Assembly: GCF_932294415.1 (NCBI RefSeq)
Contig: NC_065535.1
Coordinates: forward strand, 12,432,282 to 12,496,281
Direction: 5' to 3'
DNA: 64,000 bases
DNA from: Quercus robur
Lineage: Eukaryota; Streptophyta; Magnoliopsida; Fagales; Fagaceae
Below, piece after piece: positions 5,736 to 38,655 of this stretch. The first letter of the stretch is position 1; every line of letters begins with the position of its first letter. Below the pieces are notes generated by a model. That model was not told the DNA's origin and ran no database searches. It was given only the letters and a program-made list of their open reading frames with translations. The position numbers were made by a program, and so were the translations under genes.

Positions 5736-7560
5736 CTCTCTTTCGTCTTCTGCATCTATCCTTTTATAGATGAAATAAATCATGGTTTGTCTTCAAAAGT
5801 AACTTGAGTAAGTAAAGTTAACTCAAGTTAATCTGTCGGTAGACACTTGTAGAAGGAGAATCAGTCAGGATATTGTCTCATAGTCTATCACAAGGAGTGA
5901 CTTTTTGTCTAAATCTATCTGGAAGCTATTCACACATGCTGGTGAACAATGGTTTGTCATAATTGTCTTTGGAGGGTCTATCTCGTGAACAGTGGTTTGT
6001 CATATTGTCTCGTAGTCTATCACATGGTTTTCTTTCTTCCCATCACACTACTAATAATTTGTCATTCAGACTTTTCTAATGCCAAACGTGCAACATGTAA
6101 ATCTCATGCTAATAATATACAAGAAAGCTATGATTTACTCAAAAAATTTAATCAAATACACTTTCTGAAATCACATGTAGGATGTTATTGTGAAGAAATC
6201 AGATTGATGATGCGCCCTCATAGAAATCTTAAAAAAGAACCCTTGATTTGTCAAACAATGGTGGCTACGCAAGAGAAAAGTGCTTGCTTGTGTGAGAGGA
6301 GAACTACTATCTATCCTAAGTCCTAACACTCGATGAAGAGAGATTGAGATATAACAATTCAACGAGCCAATTGCTACTTATAAAGGGTGAAAGTAGGGGC
6401 TTCCTCTTGTTCATAATATTGGTCCATCCTATTATGGGCCAAAAAACAAAGAGAGATAATAGAAGCCCACATTCTCATTTAAAACGACTGTTAGGCCACG
6501 TAAAAATAAAGGATAAATACAACATTAGGTGCATTTGCAATATTGATGCTGATTATGACAAATCCAAAGGCTTGTTTTGAGACACTCAAAACATTCGCAA
6601 TGTCCATCTAAGAGCTTTCGCCTTTGCCTGGCTTGAGAGGTTGTGCTGCTCAATCCTTCCTTGGATGTCTGAAACCCATTTTATAACTCATTTGCTTACC
6701 ATTTTTTTTCCTAGCAAATTTTAAGGTAGCTGCCGGTGTTGTTTATAGTTTCATTGATTTGCAATTGGCTACATAGGCCATAGGTGCATCCATCGGCTCA
6801 AGCACTTAAAATGATACTAGTTTGTTTTTTGAGTCTTCTTTTTAGTTGCTTTGTCCATTTTCAGCTGTAAACCCAAATTAAGACCGTTCAACGCCAGATG
6901 TTTGTGGTCAAGAATTCAAATCCTTGCCAGGCTAAAACGTATATGGGCTTTGATGCTATTCTGGGCCTTCCCTTAGAGTCTTAAGACTTATAAAAGGGTT
7001 GGCTGTTTGGCGTGAAAATTCAAAAATCATCTTATGAAACAGGTTTATACAGCAACCCCTCAACAATATATCCTACAGGTGTGTGGTGTAGAAGGCTGCC
7101 TTGTTGTATTCACTGACAATATTGTTGCCCAGCCTGATCAAATGTCCTTTTCTCTTGGAGTGGTTGCCCAGCCTGCCCAACATTTAGAACCGCTTTGATC
7201 TAATAACTGAATAGGAAGACTTTGATCTTGTTTAGCCCTAAGTGTATAATACTCATAGTTTAACCCCACGTCATCCCTATCTATGCTCATGCACATATGG
7301 TTAAGCAATGACAGTTTAACATGTTGATTAAAGTAGACACTTCCTAGCATCCAGTATATCAAAAAAAAAAAAATTTGAAATTCATAATTTTTCAATCTTA
7401 TGTCTGGACAATGGCAAAGCTGCAGGCACCTACTGAGTACCGACTACAAAATGTTTTTATGAACTATACTACTTCCATTTTGTTTCTGGTTCACCTCAAA
7501 CTTGACACTATGGAGTGCATTTCTAAGGATAACAAATAATCACGAACTGGCCACTATAAA
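5736..7560. other. Intergenic DNA, unassigned
   Basis: Contains short frames (for example 5949-6326) with no recognised product. The phrase gacaaatccaaa followed by ccttccttggatg occurs near 5162-5190 and again, more spread out, near 6558-6670. The two may bound an old insertion. No RNA gene was seen. Confidence 0.35.
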
Positions 7561-7814: not shown

Positions 7815-10555
7815 TTAGTCCTCATAATTTTCTTCTAACCCTTCCTCCTCATACTCACCCTCATCATCAGCTGTTGCATCCTGGTACTGCTGGTACTCAG
7901 CCACCAAATCATTCATGTTGCTCTCAGCCTCTGTGAACTCCATCTCGTCCATCCCTTCACCTGTATACCAATGCAAGAAAGCCTTGCGGCGGAACATAGC
8001 AGTGAATTGCTCACTCACCCTTCTGAACATCTCCTGGATTGATGTGGAGTTACCAATAAAAGTGGATGCCATTTTCAGACCCATTGGTGGAATATCACAC
8101 ACACTTGACTTCACGTTATTAGGAATCCACTCCACAAAGTATGATGAATTCTTGTTCTGCACATTGATCATCTGTTCATCGACCTCTTTGGTGCTCATCT
8201 TTCCCCTGAACATTGCTGAGGCTGTCAGGTAGCGGCCATGACGGGGGTCAGCAGCACACATCATGTTCTTGGAATCCCACATTTGTTGAGTCAGCTCTGG
8301 GACAGTGAGGGAGATGTACTGCTGGGACCCACGAGAGGTGAGTGGTGCAAAACCCACCATGAAAAAGTGAAGACGTGGGAAGGGGATCAGATTAACAGCA
8401 AGCTTCCGAAGGTCGGAGTTCAGCTGGCCAGGGAACCTCAGACAACATGTTACCCCACTCATAGTTGCAGAGATCAAATGGTTAAGGTCACCAACTACAA
8501 AACCAGAGGTACAAAAAGGAAAGCTTAAATACTGTGGTAGTGCTTAATATTGACATTGAATCCAAAAATCAATTTGATACTTACAGCTTGGAGTGCTGAG
8601 CTTTAGTGTCCTGAAGCAAATGTCATAAAGTGCTTCATTATCAAGAACCATGCACTCATCGGCGTTCTCCACCAACTGGTGAACTGAGAGGGTGGCATTG
8701 TATGGCTCCACAACAGTGTCAGAGACCTTTGGAGATGGGAAAACGGAAAATGTAAGCATCATCCTATCTGGGTACTCTTCTCTAATCTTTGATATCAGGA
8801 GGGTTCCCATGCCAGACCCTGTACCTCCTCCAAGTGAGTGACAAACCTGGAAACCTGGCCAAAATAAAAACTACAGTTTAAGTTTAACCAGCAAATTTAG
8901 TATACAGCAACTAATATTAACACCATTTACCAGCCAATGAACTTGTCTTTTTTCTTAAGCAGGGAAAGAGATTCAAACTAGTGACCTCTGCTTCATGAGC
9001 GTGATCACCAACCAAATGCTACCCCTTAAGGTTATGGATACAAGAAAAATAAAACCTATCCAAGGTTACAACTCAAATTTGCTACAATTACATCTTCGGG
9101 TCTAAAGCTTGAAGTTGTCATGCTTCGTATATTTACAGAAAATATTATAGGTTGTTGCTATCATCAAACATTATACTCAAAAGGTATAATGCACAGTGTC
9201 ATCTTGATTGAAAGATGTTCACTACATATAAGGGTGTCTTGTAAAATACACAATTTTAAGAGGCCATTATTCGCCAACAAGAGACAAAATTATCACTAAT
9301 TATGAATCGTTAATTTTCAAAACAGTAACAATCAAACACAATTATCACTTTTGTCATCTCAAAATCCTTTTTCTATGTACTAACTCAAATGTAGATCCAG
9401 ATGCACTTTAATTCATTTCATCAATAAAGATGGGTGTATGACTGTATGTGCATCCCAGTAAATAAAGCAGATGTTATAATTTCACTTTATGTTCCTTTTA
9501 CCATTGCTAATATCCCATAATCCTAATTATGTGATTCCTCCTTTTCATTGTAAACAAGGACCCACAAGGCTAATCGAATGAGTGCCATAAAATTTACTGC
9601 CTCTGTAAATGTTTTTTTTTTTTTTTGCTAATTAAGCAATGTCGGCTGGCATAAAAAATCTAATTAGGCCATCACAATCATTGAAAATAATCAAAACAAA
9701 AACACTAATAGATCTTCCTATTGGATTATACAAACCACCAAAAAGTCATGTTCTCCACGCCAGACAAAAAAGCAGGCCCCCTAACAACTAAGCCTCGTCA
9801 TCATCATCAATCATAAATTAGTACAAAACTAAGCAAATCGAACAGTTACCACAATAATGCTAAACAATAAAGCATTGACTATCAGATCCACTGTGAGCCT
9901 TTTTTTTTTCTTCTTCTTAATTTCAAGAACACACACATATGTATATGAATTCATATAGCAAGCACATTGAAGCATAAAAAACAAGTGAGAAAACAAAAAA
10001 GGACAAAGCAATATCACTCTCATCCTTCATTACCATTTCTAGTAATATCAGATTTGATGCAGTAATTACTTATTAGAGGATCTACAAATTTCTATGTATA
10101 TATGTGAAAATTGAAGCGAAGCGAAATGAGAGAGAGAGAGAGAGAGAATGAAAACCTTGCAAGCAATCACAGTTCTCGGCCTCTTTACGAACAACGTCGA
10201 GAACGGAGTCGATCAACTCAGCTCCCTCAGTGTAATGACCTTTGGCCCAGTTGTTTCCGGCGCCGGACTGTCCGAAAACGAAGTTATCGGGGCGGAAGAT
10301 CTGTCCAAACGGGCCGGATCTGATGCTGTCCATGGTTCCGGGTTCGAGATCCATGAGAACCGCCCGGGGCACGTAGCGACCGCCGGAGGCCTCGTTGTAG
10401 TACACATTGATTCGCTCCAGTTGAAGATCCGACGACCCGTCTCCCTTGTACCGACCCGTGGGATCGATGCCGTGCTCGTCGCAGATAACCTCCCAGAACT
10501 TGGAGCCGATTTGGTTGCCGCATTGGCCTCCTTGAATGTGAAGGATCTCTCTCAT
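7815..10555 (-). CDS. TUB: Beta-tubulin, three exons, complete
   Basis: Beta subunit of the alpha/beta-tubulin dimer; binds GTP and polymerises into cytoplasmic microtubules. Exons are 10156-10555, 8585-8854 and 7815-8494. All introns are GT-AG, phases close, and the total is 449 codons plus TAA, the usual length for plant beta-tubulins. The protein starts [17 protein letters not shown], with the MREI autoregulation tetrapeptide. It carries the GTP-binding [10 protein letters not shown] loop at the start of exon 2 and ends in the acidic tail [13 protein letters not shown]. The two-intron layout is the common plant pattern. Intron 1 (8855-10155, about 1.3 kb) carries a SINE. A GA/CT-rich leader and a TATA box lie upstream. 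No defect was seen, and the paralogue number cannot be assigned from sequence alone. Confidence 0.97.
8940..9035 (-). mobile_element. tRNA-derived SINE fragment in tubulin intron 1
   Basis: On the minus strand it shows TAGCATTTGGTTGGTGATC (A-box-like) and, about 30 bases on, GTCACTAGTTTGAATCTC (B-box-like). This is a SINE head inside the first intron, in the same orientation as the gene. The tail is not resolved. Confidence 0.5.
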
Positions 10556-22054: not shown

Positions 22055-23400
22055 TATGTATGTATGTTACTGTCCATATATATGAGCGAGATGAGTAGTA
22101 GAGATCATGAAAATTTGATAACTAATTTTAATTGCATCTATTATCAAAATTTTAGTATGAAAACCAAATTCATTCTTGGTTATTTATTTATATTGATTAC
22201 ATTAGTTGGTTTACATAAAAACACATGCTTTAAATTACAAAAGAAATATAAAAAATAAAAATAAAAATAATAATTTGCATACCAAACACCAAAAAAATTA
22301 TCAATCTCATTTTTAAAGTCGTTACCAAACACTAGAAAATGATACAGTTTTCTAGAAAATAGAAAATGCTAAGGCATATGCCTAAATTAAACCTGCTATT
22401 ATAATTCAAAATAAGGTTTATCATTAAAAATTCTATAAAATTCACAAGCATAATAAACCAATGTTATAAAATTGCAACAAAGTTTTTGCTAAATAAAATT
22501 TTTATTAAATGTCTTTAAATTATGCATATTAAAATAAAATTAAAAAAAGAAAATCTCAAATGATGGAGATAAAAAAGAGAAAAAAAATTGTTAAAGACTT
22601 AAACTTAAAGCAATAAACAAATATGACAAAAAAAAAAAAAAAAAAAAGGTAAACAAAAGAAGAGAGAATAAGGTTTAAACAACTACGTGAAATTAAAAAA
22701 TAATATGTTCATAGCAAAAAATTGATGCAGAGTTGCATGTTTGGGAAACTGGAACTATGAAAAGTGATGGGTAGAATAGTGTGAATTTGCTAAGAAGTGA
22801 GAGAACGGTTTTTTTTTTTTTTTTTTTTAATATCTCTTTAGGTTTTCTCTTATTTAAATTACCACATTATTACACATTAAACAATAAAAAAATCAATGAG
22901 ATTGACCTATTGATGTAATTTTGTACAATTTACAAACCTAACTGGGTCATTAAAATCCAATTAGGTCACATGATTTGCTTAAAACTTGCCAGGTTTTACC
23001 AGATCTTATGCACATCTAATCCAATTGATGACCCATATTGGTCTATGTGTTGAGTAACTAGATTACTGGCCTGACCAGCTAGTTCGAGCTGAGTTTAATA
23101 ACATTGCTTGTCATGCATGTTTAGTTCATCTAATAAAATAATATCAATCATTTTTATTATGCAAATTATTTAATTAATTTAATTTTTTTGTTAGGCTACA
23201 TAAATAATGGACAAACTAAATATATGCGGCACTCAATAAAAAAAATAAAAAATATTAATGAAATGGCTGCTGATGGAAATGAAATAAAATTGTAGTTAAA
23301 ATCCAAACGAGGACGATATCTTGCAAGTTTGCAATTCAGCTCGCCTGTTTTTATTTGGAAAACGGCGTCGTAGCTGCGGTTAAACCTGCCGCTTGGTACA
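22055..23400. other. AT-rich intergenic DNA
   Basis: No gene recognised. Homopolymer runs lie at about 22,628-22,647 (A) and 22,809-22,829 (T). Confidence 0.5.
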
Positions 23401-23405
23401 AATAT

Positions 23406-23538
23406 TGGGCCGGGCTTTTTATCTTGAAGTGGGCTTTAGTGGATTTAATAACCTAATTCTTACCCGATTGGTTGAGGAGGGTAGAATCGTCAAATAAATT
23501 ACAGAAACCCTAATGACGAAGCCCGTGTCCTTTAAATA
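23406..23538 (+). promoter_or_regulatory. Site II / telo-box promoter of the snoRNA cluster
   Basis: Two site II-type motifs, TGGGCC (23406-23411) and TGGGCT (23430-23435), precede a canonical telo-box AAACCCTAA (23505-23513) and a TATA-like TTTAAATA (23531-23538). This is the known architecture of plant snoRNA and ribosomal-protein promoters. The first snoRNA starts about 105 bases after the TATA-like motif. Confidence 0.75.
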
Positions 23539-23641
23539 GAGATCGCTTTGTGCCTCCAAACAATTAGATTTCTTATCAGAAGCCGTAGTTCTCTTCCTCT
23601 TACTCTCTCTATATCTTTTAGTTTGTTTTGTATGAAATAGT

Positions 23642-23745
23642 GAAATCAAGTGATGAATTTGGATTTAAAATTCTCACGACGGTCGTCTGAGACACTTTTT
23701 AAAGTGTCGGAGTTGATGCAATAATCCAATACTTCTGATGGTTTC
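23642..23745 (+). ncRNA. Box C/D snoRNA 1, guide to the 25S rRNA peptidyl-transferase segment
   Basis: All four boxes are in order: C GTGATGA (23650-23656), D' CTGA (23687-23690), C' TTGATGC (23713-23719), D CTGA (23735-23738). The terminal stem GAAATCA/TGGTTTC (23642-23648 with 23739-23745) pairs at seven positions, one as U-G. The guide before D' contains TCTCACGACGGTC. It is perfectly complementary over 13 bases to GACCGTCGTGAGA, which I know as a conserved segment of 25S rRNA next to the peptidyl-transferase centre. The +5 rule points to the first C of GACC as the 2'-O-methylated base. No target is proposed for the guide before D. Confidence 0.88.
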
Positions 23746-23828
23746 TTCTCTGTGTTTTCTTCCCTTGTTACTTTTCTCTTTATATAATCGTTTGTTTTTT
23801 ATTCTTGATTTTATTCATAATTATGAGT

Positions 23829-23915
23829 GGGGCACAATGATGATGAATTGATCATTGTCCGATTAAATTCATGACAGGATATATATCCTCCTACTCATTC
23901 TGAATTGCTTGCCTC
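23829..23915 (+). ncRNA. Box C/D snoRNA 2, guide to 25S rRNA
   Basis: C box ATGATGA (23837-23843; a second overlapping copy lies at 23840-23846) and D box CTGA (23900-23903). The terminal stem is GGGGCA (23829-23834) with TGCCTC (23910-23915). The guide before D contains CCTCCTACTCAT, complementary over 12 bases to ATGAGTAGGAGG, which I recall from plant 25S rRNA (the GATGAGTAGGAGG segment). The predicted methylated base is the A of GATGA. Internal D'/C' boxes are degenerate. It follows snoRNA 1 by about 83 bases, fitting one polycistronic precursor. Confidence 0.8.
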
Positions 23916-24028
23916 TCTCATCAGATTTCGAAAATCTCAACCTTCGTCAATCTTTTTTTTTTTGGTTTTTTTTTTAGGTTTGTGTTTTTTTTTGTTTTTG
24001 ATTTAAATCTGTGTTATATATGAATAAT

Positions 24029-24122
24029 GAGGCACTGTGAGGAATATTTTAAAAGTGTGAGATTGAAAATCTATGAAATTCTCAATAATCAAGCATAAAG
24101 TCCTTTTCATTCTGAGTGCCTC
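24029..24122 (+). ncRNA. Box C/D snoRNA 3, guide to 25S rRNA 5' region
   Basis: A perfect 7-bp terminal stem GAGGCAC (24029-24035) / GTGCCTC (24116-24122) directly abuts the D box CTGA (24112-24115). The C box is the near-consensus GTGAGGA (24037-24043, one mismatch). The guide before D contains AAAGTCCTTTTCAT, complementary over 14 bases to ATGAAAAGGACTTT, a segment of the 5' part of plant 25S rRNA as I remember it. The predicted target is the first A after GATG. It lies about 113 bases after snoRNA 2 and is the last member seen. Confidence 0.82.
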
Positions 24123-24149
24123 TTTACTTGTTTATAAAGAAGTCGGCTA

Positions 24150-24228
24150 ACTGCATAAAAATGAATGAATGTACATCGTTTCAACACATAAGATAGATAC
24201 AATGCAATGCTTCATCTCCTAGTCACAA
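24150..24228 (+). repeat. 79-bp direct repeat, copy 1
   Basis: The segment starting actgcataaaaatgaatgaa is repeated without visible change at 24447-24525. It starts 28 bases after snoRNA 3. No function is recognised. Confidence 0.85.
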
Positions 24229-24446
24229 GTTAGTAAAGTAAATCCCATAGTGGTAGCAGAGAGCCAAGATGATTCCCATTTAGTTTTTAGTTTAACCCAT
24301 TCGAATTAAGAACAACAATGACCATAATTCTAAGTAGACATTAACAGATATTAGCTATTATGTGAGATCTTTAAATCTAAATCAAGCAAAGAAGAACCAA
24401 AATCAGTTTCAGGAAAAGAATCAAGATCATAAAAATGAATGAATAT

Positions 24447-24525
24447 ACTGCATAAAAATGAATGAATGTACATCGTTTCAACACATAAGATAGATACAAT
24501 GCAATGCTTCATCTCCTAGTCACAA
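24447..24525 (+). repeat. 79-bp direct repeat, copy 2
   Basis: Matches 24150-24228 base for base by eye and is separated from it by about 218 bases. It is preceded by a further partial copy (cataaaaatgaatgaata) at about 24,428. Confidence 0.85.
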
Positions 24526-25695
24526 TCTAAAAAAATTAAAAATTAAAGTCTTTTTATCCTAATTACATACTAAGATAATTATTATTGATTTACATCACTC
24601 GATATTAGCTTGGAGGCAAAGTGACATTATGAAAAGGTTTTAGGCACTCACTCCATCTTATTAGAAATATTCCAATGACTAAGTGCCAGATGTTCTGGCT
24701 TTGTGGCAAACAAAAGAGTTCATGGAAGAAATTGCTACATAAGAATTCCAAAGGAGCATTTGCAGAAATTGCATGGGAAGTGAGTGTTTGGATTCCTCTG
24801 AAACAGAGAGCACCTCTGCGTTTGTGCTTTTTGCTGAAAAAATGTGAGTTCCACTGTATTGCTACAGTATTTTTAAGCCATAAACGGTATTTAATCAGAC
24901 TAGAAGTAGGAAGTATAAGCTACAAAATTTTTTTGAGTTATTGACTATTGTAATTGTTCCTTATTTAGAGGATTTTCTGAGACCGTTTGTGTCCCCATCC
25001 AATTGTAGTCTTTTCCTTTTTGAGAGGTTATCATTTGGTTTTCCACCTCTTGACCAAATCTGTGTGTCGTATCTTTGTTGCTTTGGTTGATTTGGTTTAT
25101 TGCATGTCTATGGTAAATTTATTTTATCTTCTTTAAAAAAAATTGGTGTTTACTGTTTAATAGTTACTTGCTCCATTTTTTTATTATTGAAAATTTGATA
25201 GAAATAATGGGAATGTGGGATTTGAGTCTTAAATGTCTCCATTGAAAGTGCTAGAAGTAGAAGGTTTCTACTGAGTTACAAGACTTTTGGCTTATCTCCA
25301 AACTTAAGATGGCTTCCTTTGCACCACCTTGACTTTGAGCAAAGATATTACTTGTTAGTATATCACATGTATAGTATTTGTCATGTATTTGTTATATTTA
25401 GGATAATATCCCTAATTGAGACTAAAATCAAGGACCCATTAATTGTCTTTTATTTTAGCCCAATCAAGGATCTTCCTAGATCAACTTTATGTCTATATGG
25501 GCATTCCTGTATGGCAAATTGTACAGAAAATATAGTGTACATAGGTTGCATTAACAGTATTCCTCTATCTCTTTTCAACAACCTTGAATTCGACATAAAT
25601 AAATTCTTAAACATGCTAGGTGTGGAAAAAGAAAGAGAAGTTACGAACATTTAATTTACAAGAGGAACATAGTCTACACTCATTTTTACCACAAG
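24526..25695. other. Spacer between the snoRNA cluster and the LIN 3' end
   Basis: No gene recognised. Contains a fragment like SINE/MITE debris at about 25,205-25,290 (gggatttgagtc, gtctccattgaaa). The LIN 3' untranslated region should fall in the right-hand part. Confidence 0.45.
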
Positions 25696-37477: not shown

Positions 37478-38655
37478 AAAACAATCGTTAGATTTCATTT
37501 TAATATATAATTGCATTTCAATGTATTAAAAATTAGTTATTTTTGTGTCTTTTATATGTATAGTTAATACATAGTTTGGATATTTATTTATGGACAAAGT
37601 TTAATTACAAAATTAGTTGTAACTTAACTCTACAAACTCACTCAATAAAATAAATATTACAACATATTTTGAAAATCTAACCGTTGAATCGCATGTTTTT
37701 TACGCTTTTAATATAATGTTAAATTTTGTGTCAATCAGATATTATTTACTATATGATATATAAGCTTATAAATTGTTTTGTAGCAAATTCTTATTAATTT
37801 GCATAATGGGCCCACCACTTACATCATTTTTTTACCTACTAGTAATAACTTATAATATCAGTAATTTATAAAAAAGTTAGTAAAACTAAAAAATAGCTCA
37901 ACAACAAAAATTATCAATAGTAAAAAAAAAAAAAAAATTAAGCTCAACTAACAAATTTTATCCAAAATAAATAACCTTGTCCTTTAAAAAATTATAAACC
38001 AAAATAATTTTGTTCTTACCCACAAAAAAAAAAAAAAAAAAAAAAAAAACACTCAACAGCTAAGCCTGATTAGTAATTAGTAGCAAAGTTAGAAGTTAAA
38101 ACTATCACACTCAGCCAACAACAAAGCCGCCCCCTAGCTCAAAGTTTTGACACCATCTCTGCCTCTCATAAAAAGATATTAAATAAGTTTGTAGTCTAAG
38201 ACTACAACTAATTTTAAAAATTGTAACTAAATTTTGTCATTTATTTATTTACTATATTTTTAAAATCGATTCGTACCTTGACCTCCTTGATCGAAATCCA
38301 CTGTCTATGAGCATAGGCCAAAGGGACAAAACAATAAGTAGCATGAATCTTCCATTTCCATTACCATTAACCATTTCAAAGAGAGTATGCCACGAGAGTA
38401 TCCCCGTGGCTAGATAGTTTACTAGGAAACAAATAACAAAATGACAAATCCAACGTCAAAGTTTTAACCACCAAACAACCCTTAAAGTTTCTCAAAAAAA
38501 AAAAAAAAACAACCCTTAAAGATGACAATGTGGCATTATAATATTTACTGTTGGATCTAACTGAGAAATAGACTTAGATCCTTTTAAGCGGAACAGTGAA
38601 CATTTGAGCATTTTTGTATATACGGAGAGAGATATAGAACATCCTACTACAATTT
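37478..38655. other. AT-rich intergenic DNA
   Basis: No gene recognised. Contains A-runs at about 37,921-37,937, 38,023-38,049 and 38,493-38,509. Confidence 0.5.

Follow-up and report, generated by a model that had tools for sequence, protein, structure and literature searches.

A three-member box C/D snoRNA cluster with a telo-box/site II promoter and predicted 25S rRNA guides in Quercus robur

What can be encoded in DNA where protein gene finders report nothing? We addressed this question for the region between 23.4 and 24.13 kb of a 64-kb window of Quercus robur DNA (the whole stretch analysed, positions 12,432,282 to 12,496,281 of contig NC_065535.1), for which a cluster of three box C/D small nucleolar RNA (snoRNA) genes had been proposed from the sequence alone. 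The answer is very probably an ordinary plant cluster of three snoRNAs, with one ribosome-type promoter and predicted guides for mapped methylation sites of plant ribosomal RNA (rRNA). The features of the region are the following.

23406..23435, + strand, two site II motifs, TGGGCC at 23406 and TGGGCT at 23430 (pattern scan, TGGGCY)
23505..23512, + strand, telo-box AAACCCTA (pattern scan; one of two this way round in 64 kb)
23531..23538, + strand, TATA-like box TTTAAATA (pattern scan)
23643..23743, + strand, box C/D snoRNA snoZ161_228 (RF00328), 75.3 bits in Rfam against a gathering threshold of 45, E = 1.6e-13
23672..23684, + strand, D' antisense element of snoZ161, 13 nucleotides, TCTCACGACGGTC, with the D' box CTGA at 23687
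23832..23903, + strand, box C/D snoRNA snoZ105 (RF00145), 53.7 bits against 45, E = 3.4e-6
23887..23898, + strand, D antisense element of snoZ105, 12 nucleotides (13 in rRNA sequence L001, see below), CCTCCTACTCAT, with the D box CTGA at 23900
24028..24122, + strand, snoZ162-like (RF00329) box C/D snoRNA, 42.2 bits against 45, E = 1.2e-6 (search of 1,201 bases)
24097..24110, + strand, D antisense element of the snoZ162-like snoRNA, 14 nucleotides, AAAGTCCTTTTCAT, with the D box CTGA at 24112

The search of the entire window with Rfam at curated thresholds returned two matches, snoZ161_228 and snoZ105, both in the cluster. A permissive search restricted to positions 23200-24400 (1,201 bases) added snoZ162. 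All three models were matched over their full length, in order and on the same strand, placing three genes within 480 bases (23643-24122). The span, order, count and orientation given in the original prediction were therefore right, and the covariance-model search that it had proposed as a check put two families above threshold and the third 2.8 bits below it. It had also attributed a C box, a D box and a terminal stem to each member, and pattern scans and inspection of the sequence revealed them in all three. In snoZ161, the C box is GTGATGA (23650), the D' and D boxes are CTGA (23687 and 23735), and the stem GAAATCA/TGGTTTC, read by hand, contains one G-U pair. In snoZ105, the C box is ATGATGA (23840) and the D box CTGA (23900); its outer stem extends to 23831 and 23913, and the paired strands, GGCACAAT/ATTG(CT)TGCC, form two blocks of four pairs flanking a bulge of two nucleotides. 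The snoZ162-like snoRNA carries a variant C box, GTGAGGA (24037), a D box CTGA (24112), and a stem, GAGGCAC/GTGCCTC, in which seven of seven positions pair.

Which nucleotides would these snoRNAs guide? Guides of 12 to 14 bases had been predicted, and we found elements of 13, 12, and 14 bases. They were compared with retrieved large-subunit (LSU) rRNA sequences of eukaryotes (L001 to L004) and with segments of plant 25S rRNA in their presumed sequence. The guide of snoZ161, TCTCACGACGGTC, precedes the D' box and not the D box; it is exact against L004 and also matches the Rfam LSU consensus. That of snoZ105, CCTCCTACTCAT, is exact against L001. The guide of the third member, AAAGTCCTTTTCAT, pairs at 13 of 14 positions with L001, L002, and L003, and at 14 of 14 with what we take to be the Arabidopsis 25S sequence, so that an exact match for this member depends on the presumed plant letters, because the retrieved non-plant LSU sequences differ at one position.

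Under the D+5 rule (section 14 of PMC8053127), the target of snoZ161 is the first C of GACCGUCG, that of snoZ105 the bracketed A in AUG[A]GUAGGAGG, and that of the snoZ162-like snoRNA the bracketed A in AUG[A]AAAGGACUUU. Among the published Arabidopsis 25S sites are C2960, guided by U35, and A1377, guided by SnoR7 (Table 1, PMC8053127); those of tomato/tobacco include Cm2963/Cm2962, Am1378, and Am369 (Table 2, PMC11542601), the last of them seen by cryo-electron microscopy. The D+5 positions of all three members coincide with published plant 2'-O-methylation sites (in the case of A369, in tomato and tobacco only). The D' guide of snoZ161 is thus predicted to point to C2960 and the D guide of snoZ105 to act on A1377, the same nucleotides as those of Arabidopsis U35 and SnoR7, respectively; the D guide of the snoZ162-like snoRNA is predicted to act on A369.

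The numbering behind these assignments was tied to published methylated nucleotides used as anchors. For C2960, placed on L004, the best of 190 registers agreed with seven of the seven published letters in range, the next best with six of eight. For A1377, the presumed plant segment fitted all five anchors in one of 300 registers, some of which did not hold every anchor; L001 keeps the 70-base spacing from A1377 to the position of C1447, as well as the letter A at 1459. All seven anchor letters also agree in the 5' segment of 25S as we assume it to read, which puts the third guide on A369, and the U378 anchor is in place in L001, L002, and L003.

Could such pairings arise by chance? For each CTGA in the window, we looked for antisense sequence that ends 0 to 3 bases upstream of it and matches the retrieved rRNA exactly. 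The 163 CTGA of the + strand gave five matches of at least 11 bases and three of at least 12, the latter being the snoZ161 and snoZ105 guides, each with 13 bases, and a 14-base match in a U14 copy at 6669. The 199 CTGA of the - strand gave two and one, respectively, and the longer of these, at 37861 in AT-rich sequence, looks like a chance match. In 20 shuffles of one strand within 50-base blocks, there were 0 to 5 matches of at least 11 bases each; one match of at least 12 was present in 7 shuffles and none in the other 13. In the reversed window, matches of 11 bases numbered three on one strand and two on the other, and no match reached 12. An isolated rRNA match of 11 or 12 bases is within chance, whereas a pair of 13-base matches inside 215 bases, both lying in Rfam snoRNAs, is beyond it. 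The case consequently rests on the guides and the Rfam scores combined.

The promoter that had been described, with two site II motifs and a telo-box, was found by pattern scan upstream of the first snoRNA. The window contains five full telo-boxes on either strand and 72 site II matches on both, and of the five only the telo-box at 23505 has a pair of site II motifs at a distance of no more than 150 bases. The TATA-like box is weak evidence when taken alone, because there are 235 such matches in the window; transcription would start shortly 3' of it. According to PMC3022908, 34 of 40 non-intronic snoRNA loci of Arabidopsis have a telo-box plus site II or TEF1, and both PMC4660826 and PMC3022908 report the telo-box/site II layout in plants for genes of snoRNAs and of ribosomal proteins. 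The polycistronic snoRNA loci described in Arabidopsis and rice resemble the oak locus in having site II motifs, a telo-box, and a TATA-like box followed by clustered C/D snoRNAs. The layout suggests that the three snoRNAs share one transcript. Runs of T, at which polymerase III should stop, are present between members 2 and 3, so that a three-member transcript would fit polymerase II better. In Quercus robur, the telo-box/site II promoter would most likely drive transcription of the cluster; the resulting precursor would then be cut into three small nucleolar ribonucleoproteins, and fibrillarin would methylate the three predicted 25S nucleotides.

Several points weigh against this interpretation. 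Guide pairing was judged on retrieved LSU and presumed plant 25S rRNA, and for A1377 and A369 the numbering relies on presumed plant segments. In the segment that we take to surround A1377, there is a C at 1536, where the U at 1537 of tomato and tobacco was sought (the offset between species is uncertain), and L001 stops short of G1460. The G399 anchor used for A369 is an A in L001 and L002 and unreadable in L003. The snoZ162 match falls short of the family threshold, with a good fit at both ends and a poorly conserved middle, and its C box is GTGAGGA, though the Rfam consensus likewise has UGAgGA. Am369 is listed as unmapped in Arabidopsis (Table 2, PMC11542601). The third member is likely a relative that would work like snoZ162 while standing outside formal membership of the family. 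We lean, with some reserve, towards snoZ162 being the guide of 25S Am369, in which case the distribution of this methyl group among plant lineages would be explained by the presence or loss of the snoZ162 gene.

The same shortfall of snoZ162 would be compatible with the locus being a duplicate, silent or in decay, of a cluster working elsewhere in the genome, with snoRNAs left intact only through recent duplication. According to PMC5122169, several paralogues exist for most plant snoRNA families, and 17 kb from the cluster there is a U14 copy that has diverged and has a poor C box. Nevertheless, boxes, stems, guides, and promoter motifs are all there, and decay is unlikely to have spared them together, making such a duplicate improbable. 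It is even less probable that the snoRNAs are hosted by an intron, or by a stable long RNA that contains them and mainly serves a purpose other than rRNA methylation, as reported for lncCOBRA1 of Arabidopsis. Under the D+5 rule, all three guides fit rRNA sites that have been mapped, a fit that a role other than guiding does not need, and the list of open reading frames (ORFs) has none of at least 80 codons over 23.4-24.2 kb of the + strand, though shorter host exons may lie there. The preferred reading, a working three-snoRNA cluster, supports the original prediction as to plant families, single orientation, and snoRNA-type promoter. It fills the blank left by protein gene finders and yields concrete, testable guide-to-site assignments; its wider use is limited to one point, a candidate guide for Am369, a site that varies between lineages.

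The cluster had been placed between BRE and LIN genes. The downstream neighbor, on the - strand, is indeed a LIN-like E3 ligase with U-box and ARM_LIN domains (Pfam), whereas the Pfam search of two ORFs of the upstream neighbor gave no match, and the name BRE is unconfirmed. Just 3' of the cluster, there is a direct repeat of 93 bases (24150-24242 and 24447-24539), 94% alike and 297 bases apart from start to start. Farther upstream, the U14 copy (SNORD14, RF00016; 6569-6676, + strand) scored 60.5 bits, the threshold being 64 (E = 3.4e-12 over the 1.1 kb searched). Its 14-base 18S antisense element is intact and its C box is degenerate, so this copy, below the curated threshold, is either diverged or decaying. 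A Tubulin C-terminal domain is encoded at 7815-8543 on the - strand (Pfam). As for the retrieved rRNA sequences, eukaryotic rDNA was found in contigs filed as bacterial genomes (L001-L003) and in a viral collection (L004), which is probably the result of contamination or misfiling.
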